Shown here: positions 24,427-34,940 of the stretch, piece by piece
How the letters are laid out: every line of letters begins with the position of its first letter
Numbering within the stretch: position 1 is the stretch's first letter
IMG/VR virus record: IMGVR_UViG_3300042891_000140
Location: 1-36,270 of that record
Origin: a virus
Strand: one strand, 5' to 3'
DNA: 36,270 bases
The notes under the pieces: model-generated
What the model was told of the DNA's origin: nothing
What the model saw: only the letters and a program-made list of their open reading frames with translations
The model's database searches: none
Program-made: the position numbers and the translations under genes

Positions 24427-24610
24427 CGTGCTTGGTGTGCCGGTAAAACAGCACACCCTGCATGCCCTGGTGGATAGCGTACATAGCGTGCGCGTCCACC
24501 ACCCGCTGCCTGACAGCGTCCACTAGCCCCGCCTCACGCGTGGCGTCGAGGTCTAGGGCAGGGATGAAGAACCCCTGCCCCTTCTCAAGCGTCGTCCACG
24601 GCAGCTTCAC
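24380..24610 (-). CDS. Small hypothetical protein at the 3' end of the replication unit
   Basis: A 76-residue protein starting at GTG 24610 with AGGG six bases upstream (an in-frame TTG at 24616 is possible). It overlaps the end of the primase-helicase gene by 26 bases and runs 47 bases, antiparallel, into the end of the giant virion gene. The composition is protein-like: KLPWTTLEKGQGFFIPALD, then REAGLVDAVRQRVVDAHA and GMQGVLFYRHTK. The 'W-x-x-L-x-x-GQGFFIP' opening and 'GVLFYR' ending look like a compact mixed domain. It is the last gene of the minus-strand unit. Function unknown. Confidence 0.65.
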   Translation of the reverse strand: MKLPWTTLEKGQGFFIPALDLDATREAGLVDAVRQRVVDAHAMYAIHQGMQGVLFYRHTKHVTSPSTSRRPKHPAP

Positions 24611-27464
24611 GCTCAACCCTGCGCCTGATGCACATGGCTCGGATGCGCATCTGTGGCCCCCTGGTGCGGGCCATCATGTCCTTGCGCATGTACGACACAG
24701 TGTAGCCATCGATCTGCTCTAGTTGCTTCTTGAAGTCCTCGTAACCGAACGACATCGCCACGCAGTGTGAGCGGATGACCTGCTCCTCGATGAAGTAGTC
24801 CACGTACCCGGCTACCTCGATCTCGTGCTCCACGCGCCCCAAGACCTTGTTGCGCGTTATCGTCTGGTCGATGATCTCCCCGCTGCCCAGTGCAGCCAAC
24901 ACCTTGCCGTCGCTCTTCTTGATCACGACGAACTGGCCGTAGCTGTCACGGGTGAAAGCGTTGAGCACATCCTCTGCCGTGCGCACGCCGTTGCGCACCA
25001 CGCGGCGGGCCTTGTCTACCATGCGCTTGAGACTCTTGATGATCTCCGCGACAGGCAGGTCGATGATGCCTGCGTACTTGGACGAGACGAGGATGGCGCT
25101 GGCAATCATTGCGCCGCAGCCACCAGCCCAGAAACGCTCATCACCAGTCATCTGCCAATCGCGCTTGATCATGGCGATGGTTTCCCGGGTCACGCGCTCA
25201 GCCGTCTCTTGGTTCTGCACAAGCCAACGCACGTAGGCTTCACCAGCCACACCGTAGTTCTCCTGCAGGACGCGGATGGTCTGCTCTTCCTCGGGCGTCC
25301 AGTTCAGCTTCTCCTCGGGCGTCCACTCCAGCATCCGCAGCAACTCGCCTTGAGAAGTGTGCGCTCGCACACCGGCCATGTAGTCCTGCATGTGGGTGTT
25401 GGACGTGAAGAGCGCCAGGGTTGCCCACGACACGAGGTTGATGCGCTCGCGGTTGTGGTGAACCTCTGACTTCTCCTTGCCCTGGCCCTCGGACAGGTCG
25501 AACACCATGCCCGGGAACCACTCCATGTCGTGACGCGACTTGTGCGTGATTTCGTCCGATGTGAAGGGGAGTGAGTTAAGATTGCCAATCCGCTGCTGCA
25601 TCGTAACGGGGGAGGTGCTTTTGCCTGTGCGATATCGCACCGGGTGACCCCACACCGAATTGAGCAGCGACAGCGCCAAGGATTTACCCGTACCCGACTG
25701 GGTTGAGCCTGCATGGAACGTCAGGCAGGGCATCTGGGTAAAGCGCATGAGCGGTGCGCCGAAGGAGATGCACGAGATCGCCAACAGGTCGTACAACTCC
25801 CGCTTGATCAGCATCTGAGGGAAGCGCCGCCATTTCTCCAGGTTACCCGCCGAGCGCGTGATGCGGGTGATGTTCTGCAGGTCGGGCATGGGCACCGTGC
25901 GGGTGGTGCCGTCTGGCAGGTAAATCTTGCCGCTGTAGACGAAGGTGCCGTCCTCTTGCCATCCGTACTGGCCGGGAATCTTGACGGTCTTCTTGTTGAC
26001 GCTGGCCTCCTCGACGCAGGCCCGGACGTACTCGAACAGGTTCTTGTCGTTGCCTGACCCGTACGAGGCCATGATGTTCTGCGCAGCCAGGGCCTTGATC
26101 AACTCGTCCTTGCTGACCGACGCTTTCTGTGGGAACAGGACATCCGCAGGCTTGCCTGGGCGGTGCGCGATCATGTGGACGGTGTGCTCGTTCTCCTTGT
26201 TCAGGATGTCCACCACGAACATGTCGTAGGGCAGGATCATGACCTGCTGCTTGCGCTTGTTCCCGTCCGCGTCCTCGACCATCTTCTCCACGTACACGCC
26301 GCCGTTGACCCCGTAGGCGTATCCCCTGGGGGGCGTAGGTCGTACCACCTTGATGGTGGGCGCATCGGGATCGTCCGGGTCAGCCGGGGTGATCTCCAGT
26401 TCCTTCTCCGACGTGTCGGCCATGACCTCCCGGCCCAGGGCCAGGGGGTTGGTGATCTTGCCGAAGTGCTTGCAGTTCTGGCAAACGCCTGGGTTCTCGC
26501 TATCGAACTTGATGCAGGGATAGGGGCCTTTAATATCCCGCAGCTTGGCGTGCATCCGGTCTTCGTCGTACGGGTGCAGTTGGCTGAGCATGATCGCCGC
26601 CTTGTCCCCGTCCGCGCAGTACTTGGCCTGACTTAGCAGCCCGCGCCACAGCGGCTCCATGCCGTCGTCCTCGGCGTTCTCCACGTAGTGGGCCAACTGC
26701 GCGCAGCCGTCCCCGCTACTGGTGCGCTTCATGATCGTGCCGAAACGCACGACGCTGTTGGCCAGCATCTGCACGCCCGTCTTGGTGGCGTTGATCGGGC
26801 GCTTGCCGGGAAGCTCAAGCAGGGGTGCGGGGGTAGGCACGGCTGTGCCCAACAGGCTGCTGAGCTTGGCGAAGAACTCGTCAGCATCGAGGACAGCCGC
26901 GCCTTGCGACAGGACTTCCACCGGCCTGGGCTCGCCGTATTTCTTCTTGAAGTTCTTGGTGCCAGGGATGCGCAGCACCCGGGCGGCGTCCGCCGTGACC
27001 GTGTTGTCGATGGCCAGTTCGCGCTGCTTGCACAGGCGCTTGAACGCCTCCGCGATGGGCTTCCACTGGGCCACAGTCAGGGGCTTGTCGAACGGCCAGT
27101 AGCAGTGCAGCCCGCCGCCAGAGGCGACGATCCACGGGTTGCCATAGGCGTCCAGCCCTGTGTCAGCAAGAAAATTATCTAGCGCCTTTTGTGCCGCTTC
27201 GCGGCTCTCGTACCCGTCCATGTCGATGAACAGGGACTTGATGTACTCGGCGTTGTCGGCGGTGCGCTTACCCCGATCCGCAAACGTAGCAAGCGCGAAA
27301 TACACATCCTGCTGCCCCTCAAGCCAGCTTCGTGCGTGTGTGGGTATCTCAGCCAAGTCTTCGGTGAAGACGTGCTGTTTCTTGGGTGAGGAGAGTTCTG
27401 CCGCACAGTAATACCCGTGACCCGGAGACGGCAAAACCGCCGCTAAGAAATCTAGCGGTTCCAT
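24585..27464 (-). CDS. Primase-helicase (AEP-like primase with P-loop helicase domain)
   Basis: A 959-residue replication protein. The N-terminal ~200 residues look like an archaeo-eukaryotic-type primase: FIDMDGY (Asp81, Asp83), SGGGLHCYW (His120) and ADAARVLRIPGTKNFK fit its metal, histidine and template-basic motifs. A Cys-containing block (CIKFDSENPGVCQNCKHFG) follows near residue 320. The helicase part has Walker A GSTQSGTGKS (Lys594), a SDE Walker-B-like site (FTSDEI) and a LFTSN sensor, in DUF927/superfamily 3-like order. This one chain could unwind DNA and make primers for the family A polymerase encoded upstream. The start has CGGGA nearby and lies 12 bases after the previous stop. 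Whether the primase is active cannot be judged. Confidence 0.85.
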   Translation of the reverse strand: MEPLDFLAAVLPSPGHGYYCAAELSSPKKQHVFTEDLAEIPTHARSWLEGQQDVYFALATFADRGKRTADNAEYIKSLFIDMDGYESREAAQKALDNFLADTGLDAYGNPWIVASGGGLHCYWPFDKPLTVAQWKPIAEAFKRLCKQRELAIDNTVTADAARVLRIPGTKNFKKKYGEPRPVEVLSQGAAVLDADEFFAKLSSLLGTAVPTPAPLLELPGKRPINATKTGVQMLANSVVRFGTIMKRTSSGDGCAQLAHYVENAEDDGMEPLWRGLLSQAKYCADGDKAAIMLSQLHPYDEDRMHAKLRDIKGPYPCIKFDSENPGVCQNCKHFGKITNPLALGREVMADTSEKELEITPADPDDPDAPTIKVVRPTPPRGYAYGVNGGVYVEKMVEDADGNKRKQQVMILPYDMFVVDILNKENEHTVHMIAHRPGKPADVLFPQKASVSKDELIKALAAQNIMASYGSGNDKNLFEYVRACVEEASVNKKTVKIPGQYGWQEDGTFVYSGKIYLPDGTTRTVPMPDLQNITRITRSAGNLEKWRRFPQMLIKRELYDLLAISCISFGAPLMRFTQMPCLTFHAGSTQSGTGKSLALSLLNSVWGHPVRYRTGKSTSPVTMQQRIGNLNSLPFTSDEITHKSRHDMEWFPGMVFDLSEGQGKEKSEVHHNRERINLVSWATLALFTSNTHMQDYMAGVRAHTSQGELLRMLEWTPEEKLNWTPEEEQTIRVLQENYGVAGEAYVRWLVQNQETAERVTRETIAMIKRDWQMTGDERFWAGGCGAMIASAILVSSKYAGIIDLPVAEIIKSLKRMVDKARRVVRNGVRTAEDVLNAFTRDSYGQFVVIKKSDGKVLAALGSGEIIDQTITRNKVLGRVEHEIEVAGYVDYFIEEQVIRSHCVAMSFGYEDFKKQLEQIDGYTVSYMRKDMMARTRGPQMRIRAMCIRRRVEREAAVDDA

Positions 27465-27476
27465 GAATGTCCCGAG

Positions 27477-27674
27477 TTATTCGTTGAAGGGCAGCGGCAG
27501 TTGGTTGGGGTTGGTACGCGCCCGTTCGTGCTCTTTGTCTCGCCCGCCGTTGTCCACACGGTAGGCCAGTTCCACAATGGCTTCAGACGGCAACACGCCC
27601 GCCTTGTCGATGATGGATTGAATCTGCCGAGCGAACTCGTCGTCGCTCAGGCTTTGATACTGAATTCCTGACAT
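27477..27674 (-). CDS. Small hypothetical protein before the primase-helicase
   Basis: A 65-residue protein, MSGIQYQSLSDDEFARQIQSI... I chose the ATG at 27674 because GGAG lies six bases upstream of it; the ATG at 27686 has no ribosome site, and its own ATGGAG provides that GGAG. The product is acidic helix in the first 45 residues (EFARQIQSIIDKAGVLPSEAIVELAYRV) and ends in a short LPLPF motif. It overlaps the end of the HTH gene by 28 bases, so translation is probably coupled. The last residues (NQLPLPFNE) resemble a QLPLF-like clamp-binding peptide, but this is only a resemblance. Confidence 0.66.
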   Translation of the reverse strand: MSGIQYQSLSDDEFARQIQSIIDKAGVLPSEAIVELAYRVDNGGRDKEHERARTNPNQLPLPFNE

Positions 27675-27928
27675 GCTTTGCTCCATGCTTGTTCGTTATC
27701 GTTGGACTTCATCAGAATCTCCAGCAGTTGCTCAACGGCAGGCCGATAAGGCGCGAGCACGGTGTTCTTGCCAGTGATCCAGTTGTATACAGTCTGACGC
27801 GATGCGCCCGTAACCTGGGCGATGCGGATGACCGAGAAGTCCAAATGTACGGCCCAACGCCCGAGTTGACTCCCGAGCGTTTTGGGTGATGCCTTTACGG
27901 CCTTAACAGTCTTGACTGAATAGGACAT
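27647..27928 (-). CDS. HTH DNA-binding protein
   Basis: A 93-residue basic protein with a central helix-turn-helix: SVIRIAQVTGASRQTVYNWITGKN (about residues 32-55), where GASRQTVYNWITG is the recognition helix. Residues ~60-72 (YRPAVEQLLEIL) fit the closing helix of the XRE/Cro fold. The N-terminus is Lys-rich (VKTVKAVKASPKTLG). The ATG lies eight bases after a strong hairpin (27936-27951) and has no good ribosome site of its own, so expression may be controlled at RNA level. Location in the replication operon and lack of an integrase argue against a classic prophage repressor; a middle-gene switch is more likely. Confidence 0.74.
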   Translation of the reverse strand: MSYSVKTVKAVKASPKTLGSQLGRWAVHLDFSVIRIAQVTGASRQTVYNWITGKNTVLAPYRPAVEQLLEILMKSNDNEQAWSKACQEFSIKA

Positions 27929-27935
27929 GGTGGAA

Positions 27936-27951
27936 GGGGGCCGAAGCCCCC
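27936..27951 (-). promoter_or_regulatory. C(UUCG)G tetraloop hairpin upstream of the HTH gene
   Basis: On the minus strand the bases read GGGGGC TTCG GCCCCC: a perfect six-pair GC stem with a UUCG loop closed by C-G, one of the most stable RNA hairpins known. It lies between the stop of the ssDNA-binding gene (27958) and the ATG at 27928, leaving TTCCACC before the start. It lacks a following U run, so it is not a canonical terminator; it may act as an mRNA stability element, an attenuator, or a block to ribosome entry. Confidence 0.7.
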
Positions 27952-27957
27952 GGTTGA

Positions 27958-28866
27958 TTACTCATCGTCCCACTGAGCCGCGAGCTTAGCCAGATTTGGC
28001 TTGCCTGCGGTTGCGGGTTCTTCCGACTTGCTCTTGCGCTTGGTCGGCGGGGCGTTCTCTTCCTCCTCGGCTGCAGGCTCTTCAGCCTTGGGTGCAGCCT
28101 TGGCCTTGGGCTTGGTGCCCTCCAGGGCCAGGGGAGCCGCGACCTTGTCCGTCTTTGCTACCGTCATGGTAACGGCGCGCTTGGCGTCTTCGGTCTGGCC
28201 CTGGCGCACGGAGCTTTCGTACTCCTCCTCGGTCAGCCAACGCATCGGCTTGAAGAAGAGCTTGGGCGCCTCGGCCTTGGTGTCGAACTGCATGCGGGTG
28301 ACCAACGTCTCGGGGCTCACGCCTTGGGCGGCGAGGTAGCGAGCGTAGGCTTGCAGCGGGCGCTTGTCGCCTTCCTCCTTGCCGAAGATCGACGTGGCGG
28401 GCAGTTGAAGCTGCATCACATCGCCGTCAATATCATTAGCAAGAACAACAGCGAGGCGCTGACTAAACCGGCAGGCACGAGACTCGCCCATACCGGAGCC
28501 CTTGACGTTCTGGGGGCAGGTCGCGCAGCGATCCGACTGCTTGTTCGCAGACTCGGGGCTAGGCGTCTCGCCATCCGCAGACCAGCAGTCCGGGCCAGAG
28601 AGCGTCTCACCGTCGTACGCCTTGGCGTAGAAGGTACGACCGATCTTGGGGGCAGCGTTGACGACAACCACGTCCAGATAGCGTTCATCAATTGCAGCGA
28701 CCTCCTTGCCACCTACGAGTAGACGGAAGACGCCGCCTTTGATCGACACCCGCTTGCCGCCGCCACCACCAACGCCACCTGCGAGGGACTTGGCGAGGTC
28801 GGACAGTTCGCCTTTCTTGGCGAAGGCGGGAACATTTGAACCAGAAAAAAGAGCGATGTTGCTCAT
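27958..28866 (-). CDS. Probable ssDNA-binding protein
   Basis: A 302-residue protein, probably cytoplasmic. Residues 30-40 have a Gly run (GGVGGGGGKR), residues 40-160 a beta-rich core (VSIKGGVFRLLVGGKEVAAID, YLDVVVVN). Four cysteines (Cys94, Cys114, Cys117, Cys132, with CATC spacing) could bind zinc, as in phage T4 gp32-type proteins, though the order differs. The last ~70 residues are charged, low complexity, rich in Lys, Ala and Glu, and end in an acidic tip (AAQWDDE), the hallmark of tails by which ssDNA-binding proteins recruit partners. Location between helicase and primase-helicase fits. It is not a recognised OB fold from sequence alone. Confidence 0.58.
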   Translation of the reverse strand: MSNIALFSGSNVPAFAKKGELSDLAKSLAGGVGGGGGKRVSIKGGVFRLLVGGKEVAAIDERYLDVVVVNAAPKIGRTFYAKAYDGETLSGPDCWSADGETPSPESANKQSDRCATCPQNVKGSGMGESRACRFSQRLAVVLANDIDGDVMQLQLPATSIFGKEEGDKRPLQAYARYLAAQGVSPETLVTRMQFDTKAEAPKLFFKPMRWLTEEEYESSVRQGQTEDAKRAVTMTVAKTDKVAAPLALEGTKPKAKAAPKAEEPAAEEEENAPPTKRKSKSEEPATAGKPNLAKLAAQWDDE

Positions 28867-28878
28867 AGTGCTTTCTCC

Positions 28879-29268
28879 TTAACGAGGCTTGGTAACAGCG
28901 ATATCGAACTCGGCAGTGTTGCTGAGTCCAGGGGGATGCAGGCTGGGGTTCTCTTCCAAGAACGTCTGCATGTTGGTTTGCGCGATGCGCTTCTCAAGCA
29001 GATCGACAGCGTCGTGCTCGATCACAAACTTCTTGAAGCTGTCCCAGTCCTGGGTGTAGTACCGGGTCTTCTCCTTGAGCGTGATCGTGCCGAAGTCGGT
29101 GCGAACAGACTTGGTACCGAGCGCCATCATCTGATCCTTCATGGCGTTCTTCACCTCTTGCTGCTGCTCCTTGATGTTCTCGATCTGCTTGTCGAGGTCT
29201 TGGATAGCCGTGCGCATCTTGGTGTACATGCGCACGAGCTTGTCCATCGGGATGGTTTCTTCGGTCAT
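28879..29268 (-). CDS. Coiled-coil protein of the replication operon, unknown function
   Basis: A 129-residue protein. The start is ATG 29268 with AAGGAG ideally placed (AAGGAGAAAGCAATG); an upstream in-frame extension to 29358 has no ribosome site and overlaps the helicase gene. Residues 10-52 are a coiled coil (VRMYTKMRTAIQDLDKQIENIK), then a small beta part (VRTDFGTITLKEKTRYYTQD) and a helix (WDSFKKFVIEHDAVDLLEKR). The end is a Pro-rich turn and a strand (EFDIAVTKPR). It resembles small phage proteins that sit beside recombination or ssDNA-binding genes, but no catalytic site is seen. Confidence 0.72.
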   Translation of the reverse strand: MTEETIPMDKLVRMYTKMRTAIQDLDKQIENIKEQQQEVKNAMKDQMMALGTKSVRTDFGTITLKEKTRYYTQDWDSFKKFVIEHDAVDLLEKRIAQTNMQTFLEENPSLHPPGLSNTAEFDIAVTKPR

Positions 29269-29295
29269 TGCTTTCTCCTTATCTTTGTGTCTAAG

Positions 29296-29323
29296 AGTAT
29301 ACAGTGTCCAGAGTCGATTACAA
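29296..29323 (-). promoter_or_regulatory. Candidate sigma70-type promoter before the coiled-coil gene
   Basis: On the minus strand TTGTAA (29318-29323) and TATACT (29296-29301) are 16 bases apart. TATACT matches five of six consensus -10 bases; TTGTAA matches TTGACA in four. It lies across the helicase stop codon in the one AT-richer gap of the minus-strand unit, and transcription would begin close to 29289, giving a short leader with a strong ribosome site. This would boost the ssDNA-binding and primase genes. Confidence 0.45.
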
Positions 29324-30886
29324 CCCCCTTTCTTGAATTTCGCTGTTGAACAGGTCAACGAGCAGTGCGTTGTCGTCCACCTTGGCGGTGAGCGCCTTGA
29401 ACATCTTCTTCTCCACGGGCGAGCCCTCGATGTGGATGACGGTCACCTTGTCGGCGTTCTGTCCCTTGCGGTCAGCCCGTGCGATGCACTGGGTGTACTG
29501 CTCCACGCTCATGAGCGGCCCGTAAAAAATAACCGTGTCGGCAGCGGTCAGCGTGATGCCGTGCGCTGTAGCCGCAGGTTGCATGACGAGCACCCTCGGG
29601 TTGGGCTGCGTCTGGAAACGCTTGATGATGTCGCCGCGCTTGGTGGCTGTCACGCCGCCGTGAATCTGTTCGTTGGCGATCCCGTTTTTGTTGAGGTACT
29701 CGCTGATGGCGTCGATGGCGGAGCGGAACAGGGCGAAGATGATCACCTTCCTGTCCGTTTGTTCGAGTGCTTCCATCAGGACGTTCAGGCGCGGGGTAGC
29801 GTCGAACTCAACCACCTCCTTGTTGTCGGTGTAGGCCACGCCTGCTGAGATTTGCAGGAGTTTATTTAACGCAGCGGCAGCGTTGACTGCCGTGATCGTC
29901 TCGCCTGCGGCCATGACCAGCATCTGGGTCTTGAGCAGGTTGTAGTACTTGGCCTGCTGCGGCGTGAGCGGCACCTCGCGGGTCATCGTCACCACGGGCG
30001 GCAGGTCAAGGCACTGCGCCTTGCTGTAGCGGATGGCAGGCTGCAGCGCCTCGAACACCTTGTCGGCAGCGTCGAGCTTGGGCGCCCACTTGAACATCGT
30101 GATCTTGTTCATCACGGCATCGCGCCAAGCGGTGTAGAACTTGGGCACCCCGTTGGGGTTGACCAGCTTGGCCAGACCGTAGGCGTCCACAGGACTCTGC
30201 GAAGCAGGCGTGCCGGTCATCATCCACAGGTAGGTGTCGGGCTTGATGATGGAGTTCAGCGCCTTCCACCGCTTGGTCTGCGGGTTTTTGTAGGCGTTGG
30301 CCTCATCAACAATAACTAAATCAAAACGCCCATCAGCGCGAACTTCGTTCGCAATCAGGCTCAGGCCCTCGTAGTTGATGATGACGAACTCGTAGTTCTC
30401 TTGGATCAGTTCAATCCGCCGTGCGGCCTGGGCATGGTGCGCCACCACCGCGCTGCGGTGGATGACGCTGTTACCCAAGTCCTGCATCCAGGCGCTGTGC
30501 ATGATCGACAGCGGACACAAAATCAAAACCCTCCTAACGTCGCCACGCTTCATCAGGTAGTCAGCCGCCCACAGGGCAGACAGCGTCTTGCCCGTACCGG
30601 GATCGTTGAAGACGAACGCACGGCGGTGCAGCGTGAGGAAGGAGGCAGTCTCCTTCTGGTGGGACATCGGCGTGTAGCGCCCGGGCCACTCGTAGCGCCC
30701 GTAGATGGGAGACGGTACGTTCTTCACCCCCAGGTTGCGCAGCACACGCGCTTCATCCAGGCCCCAGTACACGGCTACGTCGTAGCCGCCACCTTCACGG
30801 GGCAGCGCCTTGCTCTTGGGGATGAGGGAATACTTATCCGGGTTGCGCGTCTTGAAGACGAGCAACCGGTTCTCAACGACTTCCAT
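29318..30886 (-). CDS. SNF2/DEAD-type superfamily 2 helicase
   Basis: A 522-residue ATPase. Motifs in order: Walker A DPGTGKT (Lys100), LCPLSIMHSAW (motif Ia), DLVIVDEAN (Asp194, Glu195; N replaces the usual H of DEAH), MMTGTP (motif III), then in the second RecA-like lobe VIIFALFRSAID, LVMQPAATAHGITLT and QCIARADRKGQ (motif VI). This is the SNF2-like helicase/translocase type common in phages, which remodels or unwinds DNA during replication and repair. The first ~75 residues are an N-terminal accessory region (REGGGYDVAVYWG). The start has CAGGAG before GCATGG. The TAA stop falls within a candidate promoter. Confidence 0.88.
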   Translation of the reverse strand: MEVVENRLLVFKTRNPDKYSLIPKSKALPREGGGYDVAVYWGLDEARVLRNLGVKNVPSPIYGRYEWPGRYTPMSHQKETASFLTLHRRAFVFNDPGTGKTLSALWAADYLMKRGDVRRVLILCPLSIMHSAWMQDLGNSVIHRSAVVAHHAQAARRIELIQENYEFVIINYEGLSLIANEVRADGRFDLVIVDEANAYKNPQTKRWKALNSIIKPDTYLWMMTGTPASQSPVDAYGLAKLVNPNGVPKFYTAWRDAVMNKITMFKWAPKLDAADKVFEALQPAIRYSKAQCLDLPPVVTMTREVPLTPQQAKYYNLLKTQMLVMAAGETITAVNAAAALNKLLQISAGVAYTDNKEVVEFDATPRLNVLMEALEQTDRKVIIFALFRSAIDAISEYLNKNGIANEQIHGGVTATKRGDIIKRFQTQPNPRVLVMQPAATAHGITLTAADTVIFYGPLMSVEQYTQCIARADRKGQNADKVTVIHIEGSPVEKKMFKALTAKVDDNALLVDLFNSEIQERGL

Positions 30887-30900
30887 GCTTTCTCCTGTTG

Positions 30901-31131
30901 TTACTTGTCCCCGCGATTGGCCTTGACGCTGCGCATGCGCAGGTTGGTCTTCGCGGAGGTGCCGCCCTTGCTGAGCGGTCTGATGTGATCTACGTCCTTG
31001 CCGTCACCCTTCTTGGCTGCACCCGTCTTCTCCATCACGCGCCGCGCCTTGACGCGCTCGGCTCGGTTGGCGATCTGTTCGGGCTTGCCGTGGTACTCGG
31101 CGTATTCCTTCTTGTAGTCACGCGTGGCCAT
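30901..31131 (-). CDS. Small HNH endonuclease-like protein
   Basis: A 76-residue basic protein with a compact HNH core: VDHIRPLSKGG (Asp48, His49), TNLRMRSVKANR (Asn63, Asn72). The order D-H...N...N fits the beta-beta-alpha-metal fold. It has no zinc-binding cysteine pairs and is very small, with an N-terminal helix (DYKKEYAEYHGKPEQIANRAERVKARR). The ribosome site (AGGAG) includes the TAG stop of the upstream gene. It may nick or cut DNA in replication or packaging, or be a degenerate homing nuclease captured as a phage gene; it sits in an operon, not inside another gene. Confidence 0.78.
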   Translation of the reverse strand: MATRDYKKEYAEYHGKPEQIANRAERVKARRVMEKTGAAKKGDGKDVDHIRPLSKGGTSAKTNLRMRSVKANRGDK

Positions 31132-31140
31132 GCTTGGCTC

Positions 31141-31812
31141 CTAGTGCTTGGGGTTGAACGTGCAGGTGGCCACGGGGCACCATCCGCACAGAGGGGACTG
31201 TGATGGGTTCCACACGTCCGTGGCGTGCGCTGCTTCGAGCTTGGCCACACGCTCACGGTAGCGCCACCATGCTTCCTCGGCCTCACCGCGCAGCATGGCG
31301 TGGGTGGTCATCGACTCCTTGACCAGGAAGAAAAGCGCCGACTTCACTTGCCTGATGTGGGGGAAGTGCGTGAACACCATGAGGGACATGAGGATCAGTT
31401 GATCCCGGTCGGGGTACTTGTTGTTGCCCGTCTTCCAGTCAACCACCTTGGCCGACAGGTTGTCGTCGTCAATGATCAGCAGGTCGGCGATGCCGCGTAC
31501 CCAACGGTTGGGATCGTTGAAGCCGCAAGGCTGCAGGTCACGCGTGACACCCATCTCGTGCTCGAACAACTTCCTCCCCGGCTTGTTCAACACCGCGTCC
31601 ACCACCGGCTTGAACTGCGCGTACTTCTCGGGAATGGGCGTGCCGTCCTTGCCGTAGTCCTCGATGGCCTTGTGCACATCCTTGCCGTAGATGGTGTGCG
31701 TCGTCTCTTGGAACGGGTAGTTCTTGAGAACCTTGACCTCGTGGTAGCGCCGAGCGCAACCCTCGAAGTCCTTCAGGCCGCTGTGGCTCCACGTGATGTT
31801 TGTTTCGCTCAT
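31141..31812 (-). CDS. PD-(D/E)XK nuclease, Cas4/AddB/RecB-like with Fe-S cysteines
   Basis: A 223-residue exonuclease-like protein. The N-terminal SHSGLKDFEGCARRYHE has Cys19; motif His47 (GKDVHKAI), Asp110 (RGIADLLI) and Asp125-x-Lys127 (VVDWKTG) form the PD-(D/E)XK active site; the C-terminal PLCGWCPVATCTF supplies Cys209, Cys212 and Cys217. One cysteine before and three after the nuclease core is the 4Fe-4S arrangement of Cas4 and AddB-type nucleases. It probably resects DNA ends for recombination-dependent replication with the SNF2 helicase downstream. The start overlaps the preceding stop as ATGA. No CRISPR locus is nearby, so a Cas role is unlikely. Confidence 0.87.
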   Translation of the reverse strand: MSETNITWSHSGLKDFEGCARRYHEVKVLKNYPFQETTHTIYGKDVHKAIEDYGKDGTPIPEKYAQFKPVVDAVLNKPGRKLFEHEMGVTRDLQPCGFNDPNRWVRGIADLLIIDDDNLSAKVVDWKTGNNKYPDRDQLILMSLMVFTHFPHIRQVKSALFFLVKESMTTHAMLRGEAEEAWWRYRERVAKLEAAHATDVWNPSQSPLCGWCPVATCTFNPKH

Positions 31813-32114
31813 TTGAATTTGGCTGACTTGATGGCCTTGGCAAGGCGCCCTGAGAACTCGGTGACGAAGTGCTCGTTGTCGTGCAGGCGGTGACCCATGT
31901 CGTAGAGGATGGCGTGTGTGACCTCGTGCCAGAAGGTGTCGTCGATCTCAGCGTCCGTGAACTTGCGCCCTGTGAGGTTGCTGCTGGCGCCGATCTCGAT
32001 GCGACCCAGGTCGTAGTAGGTGCGGCCCATCGTCGCCTTGCGGCGCATGGACTCGACTACGTCAACGGAATACATTTGCTTACCTACGCGGATGCGGACG
32101 GGGATGTTTGGCAT
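31809..32114 (-). CDS. Small HExxH metallopeptidase-like protein
   Basis: A 101-residue protein with AAAGGAG six bases before the ATG. Residues 1-45 form beta strands (VRIRVGKQMYSVDVV, YYDLGRIEIGA). The helix TFWHEVTHAILYDMG carries His63-Glu64-x-x-His67, and NEHFVTEFSGRL (Glu86) can give the third zinc ligand. This is a minimal zincin fold, similar in plan to SprT- or ImmA-like phage peptidases. It sits between the DNA polymerase and the Cas4-like nuclease, and its stop overlaps the nuclease start. Its substrate could be a host repressor or DNA-protein crosslinks, but nothing in the sequence decides that. Confidence 0.78.
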   Translation of the reverse strand: MPNIPVRIRVGKQMYSVDVVESMRRKATMGRTYYDLGRIEIGASSNLTGRKFTDAEIDDTFWHEVTHAILYDMGHRLHDNEHFVTEFSGRLAKAIKSAKFK

Positions 32115-32128
32115 GCTTTCTCCTTTGT

Positions 32129-34105
32129 TTAGTCTTTGGTCATTCCATACCGCTTGTGAACACCGACCCCCGCATCAAGCGGGATGCCCGGTAAATATGG
32201 CGGCTCCATAGTCATCTGCGCCAAGACCCAAGTCTTAGCGTAATCTTCGTCTCCTTCCGGTATCACGGCGATCAATTCGTCATGCACCGTGCCTACCAAA
32301 GGGTACTTCTTCGCAACCCTTAGCATCCCGTCTGTCATGACGCAGCGCGCCGTGCCTTGAACAATGTTGTTGGTGATCTTCCCGGCGTACAGCTTGATGC
32401 GCTTCTTGCCGTCAGCGTACGACCACTGGGATCGACCACCCTCGTCCTTGTCCTGGCGGAGATCAGGATACCGCATCGCCATGCCACTTGGCAAGACGAT
32501 TTGTTCCTTGCGGAACGTGATGCACTTGTGCTTGTATTCCTTGCCCCGGTACAGGCTGTACTCGATCAGTTCCTGGCACAGGTTCCAGAACTCCACCACG
32601 GGCTGCGAGGCGGCGCGGTACTTGTCGATAATGGCCTTGGCCGCTAGGCAGTGGATGGCCAACTCCAGGGTAGAGCAGGTGTGCGGGATGGCCTCCAGCT
32701 TCTTGAGGTTCTCGTCCCACTCTAGGAAGCGCCTGACATCCTCGCCCGTGACGCCCAGAACCTTGGCGTCCTCCTTGGTGTAGCGCAGCGGCTTGGCGCC
32801 CAGGAACCCCACCAGAAGCTGCGCGGCGAACGACGCCCAGCCCAACTGATAGCCCGCCCCGATCAGCGCGCTCTTGGCTGCTTGCCGCTCCACGGGGTGC
32901 GTGTCCTTGGTCAGGCCCGGGATGCCGAACATCTGTGCGCCGAACTGGGCGTAGGCATCACTCCCTGATCTAAAAATATCCAACAGCGCGTCGTTGTCCG
33001 ACAGCACGCCGAGCACACGTGGCTCGATCTGCGCCAAGTCCCCTGCAACTAAAAGACTACCCTGCGGGGCCATGATGGCGTTGCGCAGGAAGCTGCCACG
33101 CTTGAGGTTCTGCATGTTGATGGCCGACCCCTTGCTCGCCGTCCACCGCCCGGTGCCTGCGCCGAAGTAACTCAGCGGGACCGGCAACCGGCCACGGTGC
33201 GCGATGTCGAGGAAGCGTTGTGCACGCGTGCGCTCACTGGTGGACTTGACCTTCAGCCTTGCTTGGCACAGCAGCATCACGTCTTCGTTGTCGCTGTTGA
33301 GCAGCGCCTGAAAGAGGGCGTCATTTTTCGCAAGCGCGTACGTTTCAAGCCCCGTGGTCTTGCTGGTTTTGATCGGCGGAGGAACTCCGATTTGTTCGAG
33401 GAGCGCAGCAAACTGGTCGTTTGAAGCAAGCGCAGCCTCATCCACGCCGAGCCTCTGTAGCAGTCCTTCACGGGCTTCCCTTTCTTCTACGATGGCCGCT
33501 TTCAGCATCCCCCGGTCGAGTTCCAGCAGCGGCCTCGTGTACATCTTGAGCGTGATGTCGATGAGGCGCAGTTCCTTGGGCGGGAACCCGGGCATCAAGC
33601 GATCAAAGATCGCTTCGCACAACGCCACGTCGTGCTTGCAGTAGTCAGCCAGTTCCTGCTCCACCTCGAAGGAGATGGACTCCAACATCCCGTCCGTGCT
33701 GTGCACCGCCTGACCCTTGGGTGGGAGTTCAAACTCGGCAGCAAGCGTAGCCAGACTATTACCCACCTCGATGCCGCGCAGCGCGCGGGCCATGCTGAGC
33801 GTGTCGAAGATGAAGGCGGGTTGAACCCCGAAGCGCCAGGACAGGATCGTCACGTCGAACTGGGCGTTGTGTGCCAGGACTGCCGTCTCGTTCCAATTTA
33901 TTCCATCGGCCCACGCCTGGATGTCCTTGCCGCGCACCCAGACGGCAGCACCTTCTTCCCCCACCTCTTTCCAGCACAACCCCCAAGCCTTGAAGCGCGG
34001 GTCGCGGACGTACTCCTCGGTGGTCATCTTGGACAGGGTGTATTCCTTCCTGTCCCAGGCAGTCTCAAAGTCAAGCGCGATCACTCGCGTGAAAGGTAGG
34101 CTCAT
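32129..34105 (-). CDS. Family A DNA polymerase with 3'-5' exonuclease
   Basis: A 658-residue replicative polymerase. The exonuclease has Asp12 and Glu14 (ALDFET), Asp84 (NAQFD) and Tyr155-x3-Asp159 (YCKHD), the DEDDy set. The polymerase has motif A AGDLAQIEPR (Asp356), motif B RQAAKSALIGAGYQLG (Lys411, Tyr419) and motif C VHDEL (Asp609, Glu610). There is no 5'-3' exonuclease domain. Residue 415, in the position matching Phe762 of E. coli Pol I, is Ile (see findings). TAAGGAG precedes the ATG. It probably works with the primase-helicase and ssDNA-binding protein downstream. No T7-type thioredoxin-binding loop is obvious. Confidence 0.94.
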   Translation of the reverse strand: MSLPFTRVIALDFETAWDRKEYTLSKMTTEEYVRDPRFKAWGLCWKEVGEEGAAVWVRGKDIQAWADGINWNETAVLAHNAQFDVTILSWRFGVQPAFIFDTLSMARALRGIEVGNSLATLAAEFELPPKGQAVHSTDGMLESISFEVEQELADYCKHDVALCEAIFDRLMPGFPPKELRLIDITLKMYTRPLLELDRGMLKAAIVEEREAREGLLQRLGVDEAALASNDQFAALLEQIGVPPPIKTSKTTGLETYALAKNDALFQALLNSDNEDVMLLCQARLKVKSTSERTRAQRFLDIAHRGRLPVPLSYFGAGTGRWTASKGSAINMQNLKRGSFLRNAIMAPQGSLLVAGDLAQIEPRVLGVLSDNDALLDIFRSGSDAYAQFGAQMFGIPGLTKDTHPVERQAAKSALIGAGYQLGWASFAAQLLVGFLGAKPLRYTKEDAKVLGVTGEDVRRFLEWDENLKKLEAIPHTCSTLELAIHCLAAKAIIDKYRAASQPVVEFWNLCQELIEYSLYRGKEYKHKCITFRKEQIVLPSGMAMRYPDLRQDKDEGGRSQWSYADGKKRIKLYAGKITNNIVQGTARCVMTDGMLRVAKKYPLVGTVHDELIAVIPEGDEDYAKTWVLAQMTMEPPYLPGIPLDAGVGVHKRYGMTKD

Positions 34106-34113
34106 GCTTCTCC

Positions 34114-34386
34114 TTAGTGTTTTGTTTCTGTCTCAGTCGTGATCGCGTCCTCGATGAAGACGTTGAGCGCCGTGTTGACTATGCGCACCGACTCGTCGTA
34201 TGAGGCGTTCAGCCCCATCGTCGTCATGCACTCGCCCTTCTCAAGCAGTATGAGCACGCCTTGCGTGTTGTCTTCCGAGAAGGCGCGGAACAGCGTCTTG
34301 ATGGCGTGGATCAGCGCCTCCTTCTTCTCCGGCTCCATGTTGGCGACCTCCGCCTCCATGTAGCGCCCGTAATCTTCATTGTTCAT
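34114..34386 (-). CDS. Small acidic hypothetical protein
   Basis: A 90-residue protein. The start is ATG 34386, eight bases after GGAG; an ATG at 34404 would contain that site, so I reject it. The protein is helical and acidic: DYGRYMEAEVANMEPEKKEAL, LFRAFSEDNTQGVLILLEKG, then ESVRIVNTALNVFIEDA. A segment with DNTQGVLILLEKGECMTTMGLNASYDE reads like a small beta sheet. It overlaps the end of the nuclease gene by 11 bases and lies directly before the polymerase. Function unknown. Confidence 0.7.
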   Translation of the reverse strand: MNNEDYGRYMEAEVANMEPEKKEALIHAIKTLFRAFSEDNTQGVLILLEKGECMTTMGLNASYDESVRIVNTALNVFIEDAITTETETKH

Positions 34387-34684
34387 GTAGTTGACTCCTA
34401 GCATCTAACCACCCCTGTAGTTCGTTGATGTTGTCCTCGTTGATCACGAGGGTCGTGCCGCCTGCCGTGCGTATCTTGAGCATCTCGGCTTCCTGCAGGG
34501 CGGTTGGTTTGTTCTTGCCTGCCTTGCACTCGATGGCCAGGAAGTGGCCATCGCAGCAGGCGATGATGTCGGGGATGCCCACCCTACCGTAGCCCGAGGC
34601 CACGGGGAAGAAGTAGTAAACCTTATGGGCATTGAGCAGTGTCACGCACTGCTTCTTGACCTTGACTTCGGGGGTTGTAGCCAT
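34376..34684 (-). CDS. VRR-NUC type nuclease
   Basis: A 102-residue nuclease. The ATG at 34684 has GGAG seven bases upstream; the longer frame up to 34849 is an antisense-like extension inside the preceding gene. The core is GRVGIPDIIACCDGHFLAIE CK AG with Asp39, Glu52 and Lys54 and a following Gln64 (ALQEAEM), the PD-(D/E)XK set of the VRR-NUC family. This stand-alone form occurs widely in phages; related domains resolve branched DNA. Its first 62 bases overlap the end of the upstream winged-helix gene. A role in Holliday junction or replication-fork cleavage is plausible from the family. Confidence 0.86.
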   Translation of the reverse strand: MATTPEVKVKKQCVTLLNAHKVYYFFPVASGYGRVGIPDIIACCDGHFLAIECKAGKNKPTALQEAEMLKIRTAGGTTLVINEDNINELQGWLDARSQLHEQ

Positions 34685-34940
34685 CGGGCAACTCCAGTTT
34701 GTAGACCCACAAGCCATCGCGTATGCGCTTCCTGTGGACGGTGTATTCACCGAACTTCTTCTTGCGAAGGTCGCGTATGCGGGCGCTGACCGAGGCATCG
34801 GAGCCGCCACATCGAACCACCAACTCGGCCAGCGTGTGCCACTGGCCATCGAACATCACATCTCGAACACGGCCTAGCTGCGTGAGCAGCCTATCCTTGT
34901 CTTTCTCTGGGTCGTAGGTGACCCCGCCAAATAAGCCCAT
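34623..34940 (-). CDS. Winged-helix DNA-binding protein
   Basis: A 105-residue protein with AAAGGAG before GCAATG. Residues 15-75 read as a winged helix: DRLLTQLGRVRDVMFDGQWH, LAELVVRCGGSDASVSARIRDL (recognition helix DASVSARIRDLRKKKFG), then a beta wing (YTVHRKRIRDGLWVYKLE). The C-terminal ~20 residues are disordered and overlap the VRR-NUC start. It is the first gene after the largest minus-strand gap, so it may control the following replication genes. Confidence 0.76.
   Translation of the reverse strand: MGLFGGVTYDPEKDKDRLLTQLGRVRDVMFDGQWHTLAELVVRCGGSDASVSARIRDLRKKKFGEYTVHRKRIRDGLWVYKLELPDGYNPRSQGQEAVRDTAQCP

Follow-up and report, generated by a model that had tools for sequence, protein, structure and literature searches.

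What does a short C(UUCG)G hairpin do between two genes of a replication operon, directly behind the stop codon of one and a few nucleotides ahead of the start codon of the other? The question is raised by the IMG/VR virus record IMGVR_UViG_3300042891_000140, analysed here over a stretch of 36,270 nucleotides (the window), in which a minus-strand operon (Table 1) contains a gap of 29 nt, the only one above 14 nt among the ORFs taken as its genes; the other junctions are overlaps or gaps of at most 14 nt. Both of the other gaps long enough to fold (14 nt) are free of structure, and GGAG or AGGAG occurs in four of the six other operon gaps and is absent from this one. The TAA of the upstream gene lies at 27958-27960 and the ATG of the downstream gene at 27928, and the intervening minus strand reads exactly GGGGGC-TTCG-GCCCCC, ending 7 nt before the ATG, as an earlier note on this DNA had described. 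The cUUCGg loop, the G/C stem and the two same-strand genes are those of a C(UUCG)G intercistronic hairpin, which in the predicted fold is the sole structure of the gap. The same note had remarked that the downstream gene lacks a normal ribosome site, and in fact no Shine-Dalgarno (SD) motif was found in the 29 nt, neither before the stem nor between the stem and the ATG.

Table 1. Positions of the hairpin, its spacers, the flanking genes and the operon in the window.
Feature	Position	Strand	Basis
C(UUCG)G hairpin, 6-bp G/C stem	27936..27951	-	exact sequence; predicted fold -14.3 kcal/mol
6-nt spacer, upstream stop codon to stem	27952..27957	-	sequence
7-nt SD-less spacer TTCCACC, stem to ATG	27929..27935	-	sequence
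Probable ssDNA-binding protein gene (P0002), 302 aa	27958..28866	-	phrog_27714, structure model, cysteines
Small HTH-like protein gene, 93 aa, SD-less	27647..27928	-	weak HTH matches; relatives at same place
Replication operon: exonuclease, DNA polymerase A, helicase, SSB-like, HTH-like, primase/helicase	24585..34849	-	

The hairpin itself is of a known kind, and what is odd about it is its site, not its energy. At least four places on the same strand are more stable, and the mean best fold of 30 shuffled windows was -19.3 kcal/mol. The 101 nt around the hairpin fold slightly better than shuffled sequence (z -2.0, equalled by 4 of 200 shuffles), and the hairpin pattern with up to two mismatches matches once, against 0.09 expected per window, with at least one match in 9 of 100 shuffles. 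In the window scan, the short hairpin with the highest stability on that strand is a different one, a GGGGCAGGGG/CCCTGCCCT inverted repeat at 24555-24581 (minus strand), 3 nt after a primase-like gene and between convergent operons, which is perhaps a terminator.

The genes on either side were read by the earlier note as encoding an ssDNA-binding protein upstream and an HTH-type DNA-binding protein downstream. For the first, P0002, the reading holds up as probable, in that a model of middling confidence points to a gp32-like SSB. P0002 matches phrog_27714 (unknown function; E 8.6e-36) and has no Pfam match, its cysteines 94, 114, 117 and 132 are invariant, and its C-terminus is acidic (..QWDDE). 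The structure model, built from 28 sequences with a mean pLDDT of 66, resembles the RB69 gp32 core (VIA Z 5.7 over 145 residues) and the BRCA2 OB region (Z 6.5), both below the caution line of the tool at Z 8, under which a match may reflect merely a common arrangement. Its best structural neighbour, the PhiC31 recombination directionality factor fusion chain 9teh_I (Z 7.8), ranks above gp32 and is not an SSB, and Foldseek returned no match for the model at E 0.001. For the downstream protein a DNA-binding role is plausible but weak, the HTH-type Pfam matches (E 6e-4 to 0.08) all lying under the curated cut-offs.

Related phages were then compared at the same junction. Two homologue searches of viral contigs gave at least 80 loci each and at least 159 distinct loci, some contigs occurring in duplicate. 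A census of 205 loci with both genes, leaving out pattern matches from cellular genomes and named phages, yielded 108 distinct gaps among the matches listed, some contigs again being present more than once. A stop-proximal G/C stem occupies the site in 83 of these 108 listed gaps, distributed over 44 with a GAA/AGTA (loop-E) motif, 18 UNCG hairpins, 10 other short stems and 11 long stems. The script recognized no stem near the stop in the other 25 listed gaps, of which 18 are 289-327 nt long and, where examined, contain an additional short ORF that precedes the element; in the remaining 7 the frame is wrong, the gap is very short or the script missed the stem. A cruder script, applied to 70 contexts behind P0002-family genes, left 11 stemless, mostly cases with an extra ORF. 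Flank identity was compared in 8 locus pairs, 7 of them picked for differing gaps. In L001 and L003, the flanks of which are 97.5 and 97.7% identical, the gap has been exchanged, its length being 29 nt in the first and 105 nt in the second, and other swaps were seen in L018/L017 (97.5-99.0% flank identity), L043/L044 (97.8-98.0%) and L061/L062 (92.6-99.9%). The site accommodates several interchangeable stems, of which the hairpin of the window is one allele; some of the RNA structures that take each other's place at the junction are known, others unlisted.

Among named phages, 17 records carry a P0002 homologue and five junctions were examined, and a comparable hairpin near the stop was seen in just one of them, in the cultured Pseudomonas phage Rollin: GGGGGCT-GCAA-AGCCCCC, capped by GCAA and located 7 nt after the stop of the P0002 homologue. 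No hairpin was found in KPP25 (16-nt gap), Xp15 (overlapping genes) or Effie (7-nt gap), and in RHph_TM3_14A an inverted repeat lies deeper in an 81-nt gap. In several viral loci (L044-L046, L062, L064, L065) an ORF of HNH type, judged by eye, lies within the junction after a UUCG hairpin with a T-rich tail, and in L058 such an ORF is present without a hairpin.

The larger form at the site is an RNA of 40-110 nt with a GAA/AGUA motif; GAA opposite AGTA has the appearance of a loop-E (bulged-G) motif, a label given on the basis of sequence. The pattern GGGGGGAAMGN{15,45}AGTACCCCC found at least 120 viral stretches in IMG/VR, as did a second scan with the closing stem left free and a third with the B core (at least 120 each). 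Loop-E RNA is common in IMG/VR: 84 distinct elements among the matches listed comprise 22 with core A, 40 with core B and 22 without a strict core, several of these being near variants. In 257 Gb of cellular genomes the same pattern gave 26 matches, all examined, none with either core.

Covariation argues for a folded RNA. The type-A alignment, from which sequences were dropped for length, ends or identity, contains 103 distinct sequences from 111 distinct contexts among the matches listed, and shows 118 double-change cells against 25.9 in shuffled alignments (reached by 0 of 500) and a covariation score of 0.296 against 0.083 (0 of 500). The closing stem, all five pairs of which vary on both sides, accounts for 93 of the 118 cells, and slid versions reach at most 37. 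The count of pairs with double changes is less telling (7 against 5.3 shuffled, 39 of 500 reaching 7), and the outermost pair fails in 33 of the 103 sequences. The 41 type-B sequences, in which the search itself fixed the closing stem, give 22 double-change cells where shuffling gives 5.6 (0 of 500), and four of their inner pairs vary on both sides. The type-A G-U pairs were fixed by the search pattern and have no evidential value, and the core columns are invariant partly because the pattern required them. Two inner type-B pairs that were not fixed by the pattern are mostly G-U (33 of 41) and U-G (26 of 41), and a function at the level of DNA is therefore not favoured. On these alignments, the loop-E form is a well-supported structured RNA. 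Compensatory change in relatives, which had been proposed as a check of the hairpin, was thus seen in this form, but the short UUCG hairpin changes by exchange of the whole stem, not pair by pair.

The top of the element appears to be modular. Six of 90 apical sequences, TGACCAGTTAGCTGAAATGCAAAGGCA for example, cap two or more distinct closing stems and recur behind different genes, which gives the impression that tops have been exchanged, and a minimal form is capped by GAAA (L172, L310, L397). In L192, L238, L307 and L325, a type-A element is followed directly by a second G-stem element.

Databases offered little that resembles this RNA. At the gathering score, Rfam 15 had no match in the window or in 20 junction loci, and in 9 further element loci gave only tRNA and tmRNA, all in L365. 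A loose scan of the L110 element returned opposite-strand RsmV at 12.7 bits (gathering 100) and ZFAT-AS1_2 at 10.2 (gathering 70), and loose scans of the vB_BaM-IFTN6 and L365 regions returned nothing over the core. Models R1 and R3 had no match in the window. Named phages gave weak, short matches with a best E of 0.1, not all of which were examined; the one real match is Bordetella phage vB_BaM-IFTN6, and a match in Streptomyces phage WhereRU was rejected after inspection of the sequence. Plasmids had none for one type-A query. In vB_BaM-IFTN6 (L569:1495-1564) and in L365:7423-7477 the type-A core lies in longer unannotated regions with tRNA genes nearby, which have in common a downstream block like GTGGAANTCCGNGCCGGAGACGTAACCGG and perhaps represent a larger RNA of unknown kind. 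No description of the loop-E element was found in the literature covered, mostly open access and including the available parts of PMC2864571 and PMC8040213, and an earlier listing is possible.

The element usually stands close behind a stop codon. An ORF of at least 45 codons ends within 30 nt upstream in 222 of 245 distinct element contexts among the matches listed, and the stop-to-element gap is 4-9 nt in 197 of these 222 listed contexts; the spacer of the window is 6 nt. After 11 contexts with short upstream sequence had been dropped, an ORF of at least 80 codons ended 3-9 nt before the element in 177 of 234 contexts in sense, 5 of 234 in antisense and 19 of 1170 at random positions, many contexts being related so that the cases are not independent. 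The upstream ORFs among the matches listed fall into 36 single-linkage clusters, with families assigned from one or two tested members each. The listed ORFs include 69 of the P0002 family itself and 40 of a small DIPF-tailed family without annotated function (structure model pLDDT 72, pTM 0.43). Smaller clusters belong to ssDNA-binding families: 13 of Enc34 type (PF10991/phrog_112), 9 of phrog_18154 (the longest member, in L375, being without a match) and 8 of DUF669/phrog_6015, with singletons of PF00436, also an ssDNA-binding family, and RecT. Others are not SSB-like, namely a small extra ORF (13), a Cys-rich ORF (9), phrog_9528 (9) and the phrog_62 helicase (8). In one group (L351) the element stands behind a small Cys-rich ORF, and in a cluster of three (L243, L348, L358) the tested member, L243, has an Acb2/Tad1 hairpin domain, presumably of anti-CBASS type.

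Where the element occurs, it is single. R1 matched exactly once in each of 9 of 22 records and R3 exactly once in each of 15 of 30, several places being common to the two, so that a mobile multi-copy repeat is rejected for the loop-E element. A weak R3 match in G011 (E 4.1e-4) is apparently coding sequence with a short GCGG/CCGC stem. Records G006, G007, G008 and G014, with the UUCG allele at the junction, have no loop-E match with R1 or R3. UUCG hairpins also stand elsewhere in these phages: 11 of 16 records have between them 20 exact GGGGCTTCGGCCCC places, the reversed pattern giving 5, and the 10 places examined comprise one junction, several directly behind stop triplets and two with U-tracts.

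The reading preferred here, tentatively and with a likelihood just short of even, is that the hairpin is a stop-proximal stem which shields the upstream ssb message from 3'-5' decay. Ribosomes would complete the SSB-like protein and the stem would refold directly behind the stop codon; the downstream part of the polycistronic message would be cut and degraded from its 3' side, and the stem would stop the 3'-5' exonucleases, leaving a stable, translatable ssb segment. The SD-less HTH start right after the stem would be weakly translated, so that much SSB and little HTH protein would come from one operon. In relatives, other stems at the same spot, including the modular loop-E RNA, would do the same task, the window having the minimal UUCG allele. 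We infer the run-through of the transcript, the block to decay, the raised SSB:HTH ratio and the equivalence of the UUCG and loop-E forms from arrangement and precedent. A stem 4-9 nt after a stop, mostly without a U-tract and retained through changes of its top and of the gene downstream, is best understood as serving the upstream message, and the suggestion of the earlier note that it stabilises that message fits the relatives. A decay barrier is favoured because of hairpins without a U-tract in E. coli and because of the stable ssb mRNA of T4. According to the available part of PMC5927463, of 34 E. coli operons in which the upstream gene is stabilised, 26 have its 3' end directly behind a stable hairpin without a U-tract; the ssb mRNA of T4 is described in the available part of PMC3014915 as the most stable of that phage. 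The window has the corresponding sequence, a stable hairpin 3' of the upstream gene with no U-tract behind it.

Several observations count against a decay barrier. A plain barrier needs no conserved loop-E core and leaves the single copy per record unexplained. A loop-E element was present in just 5 of 62 distinct contexts behind DIPF-tailed ssb-like genes, and no stem was recognized by script in 43; the five named phages examined, among which Rollin stands alone, point the same way. Many upstream genes are not SSB-like, the Acb2/Tad1-type gene among them, the SSB identity of P0002 comes from a mid-confidence model with a non-SSB as best neighbour, and UUCG hairpins stand elsewhere in these phages, two of those examined being followed by U-tracts. 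The exchangeable tops point to a role of the loop-E form beyond the blocking of an exonuclease. It is a serious though still tentative possibility that the hairpin is a stripped-down allele of a widespread phage RNA family absent from the descriptions found. Such a family would be single-copy and stop-proximal, its closing stem covarying, its platform a loop-E-like GAA/AGUA and its apical cassettes exchangeable; it would lie by preference behind ssDNA-binding-protein genes of several families and act as a specific regulatory or protective device, not as a passive stem.

The main rival to the decay barrier, and the second-best reading, is that the stem controls translation of the downstream gene, by blocking the SD-less HTH start, by bridging an SD before the stem to the ATG, as is reportedly the case in T4 gene 38, or by positioning terminating ribosomes for re-initiation. 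A lowered level of the HTH protein, one effect proposed by the earlier note, is possible. The spacing of starts speaks for control of the downstream gene. Among the 83 stem-bearing ssb-HTH gaps in the matches listed, the stem-to-ATG distance is 8-12 nt in 54, an SD-like motif lies between stem and ATG in none and before the stem in 20. Around loop-E elements, 215 listed cases with a start within 60 nt divide into 103 with an SD, of which 53 start 17-18 nt behind the stem, and 112 without, of which 67 start at 5-13 nt (mode 9) ahead of several different genes. The normal SD after those 103 of the 215 listed elements, the 15 SD-less starts at 18 nt and the lack of an SD before the stem in the window speak against it, and the genes downstream of the loop-E element fall into many BLAST clusters, which makes control of initiation unlikely as a common function. 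Taken on its own, this reading is rather unlikely, and it can act together with the decay barrier.

A further reading, judged unlikely, takes the loop-E form for a specific RNA device, a binding site, its apical cassettes exchangeable, for a protein, a small RNA or another ligand; the UUCG hairpin would be a broken or simplified version without that function. This reading would account for the conserved internal core beyond the stem, for identical tops on different closing stems and behind different genes, for one copy per record and for the presence of the core in a longer unannotated region near tRNA genes in vB_BaM-IFTN6. The invariance of the core is in part a product of the search pattern, however, and the minimal GAAA-capped form implies that the apical part is dispensable, which counts against such a device; to our knowledge no ligand or partner has been described.

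The earlier note had also offered a partial attenuator that sets ratios in the operon. A partial intrinsic terminator or attenuator would suit the G/C-rich stem of terminator size and the T-rich tails of some UUCG relatives at the site (L044-L046, L052), but it needs a U-tract directly after the stem, where the window has TTCCACC, and the terminator scan of the window does not list the hairpin. Among 105 type-A relatives in the matches listed, a U-tract follows in 13 and ACC in 75, and this part of the proposal is improbable. A readthrough or frameshift stimulator was ruled out, the junction gaps of 29, 30, 31, 32 and 33 nt putting the downstream frame out of register, with no slippery site at the junctions by eye. 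A neutral or chance hairpin is highly improbable because the stem is conserved at the site, near the stop in 83 of 108 related gaps among the matches listed despite replaced inner sequence, even if hairpins of such total energy are expected somewhere in 36 kb.

Should the decay barrier and the wider family be borne out, many environmental phages would have in common a structured RNA without an Rfam match, which uncouples the level of an abundant replication protein from that of its operon neighbours. The exchange of whole tops between near-identical phages would then provide a natural allele set for finding which part matters, and UUCG, GNRA and loop-E alleles would be directly comparable in one reporter.

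Extra-stable C(UUCG)G hairpins also lie between genes in T4, a tailed phage like the present one; in this phage group, however, other tetraloop hairpins, long stems and loop-E forms take the place of UUCG at the one site. The decay barriers of malE-malF, of the puf operon and of the 34 E. coli operons in the available part of PMC5927463 are similar in having a stable stem directly behind the upstream gene, within the operon and without a U-tract, whereas in the phage relatives the top is often a conserved exchangeable RNA and not a plain hairpin. STAXI RNA (RF01728) is often found near ssDNA-binding-protein genes and commonly has UUCG loops, but is a pseudoknot that comes in two or usually three copies in Enterobacteriales, as far as the accessible text of PMC2864571 describes it; the window and the loop-E form have another fold, and neither a pseudoknot repeated at least twice nor an RF01728 match was found in the window, the 20 junction loci or the 9 element loci. 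The pseudoknot operator of T4 gene 32 (PMC3014915, available part) is also a structured RNA serving an ssb message, but it lies 5' of the ssb gene, whereas the present element lies 3' of an ssb-like gene.
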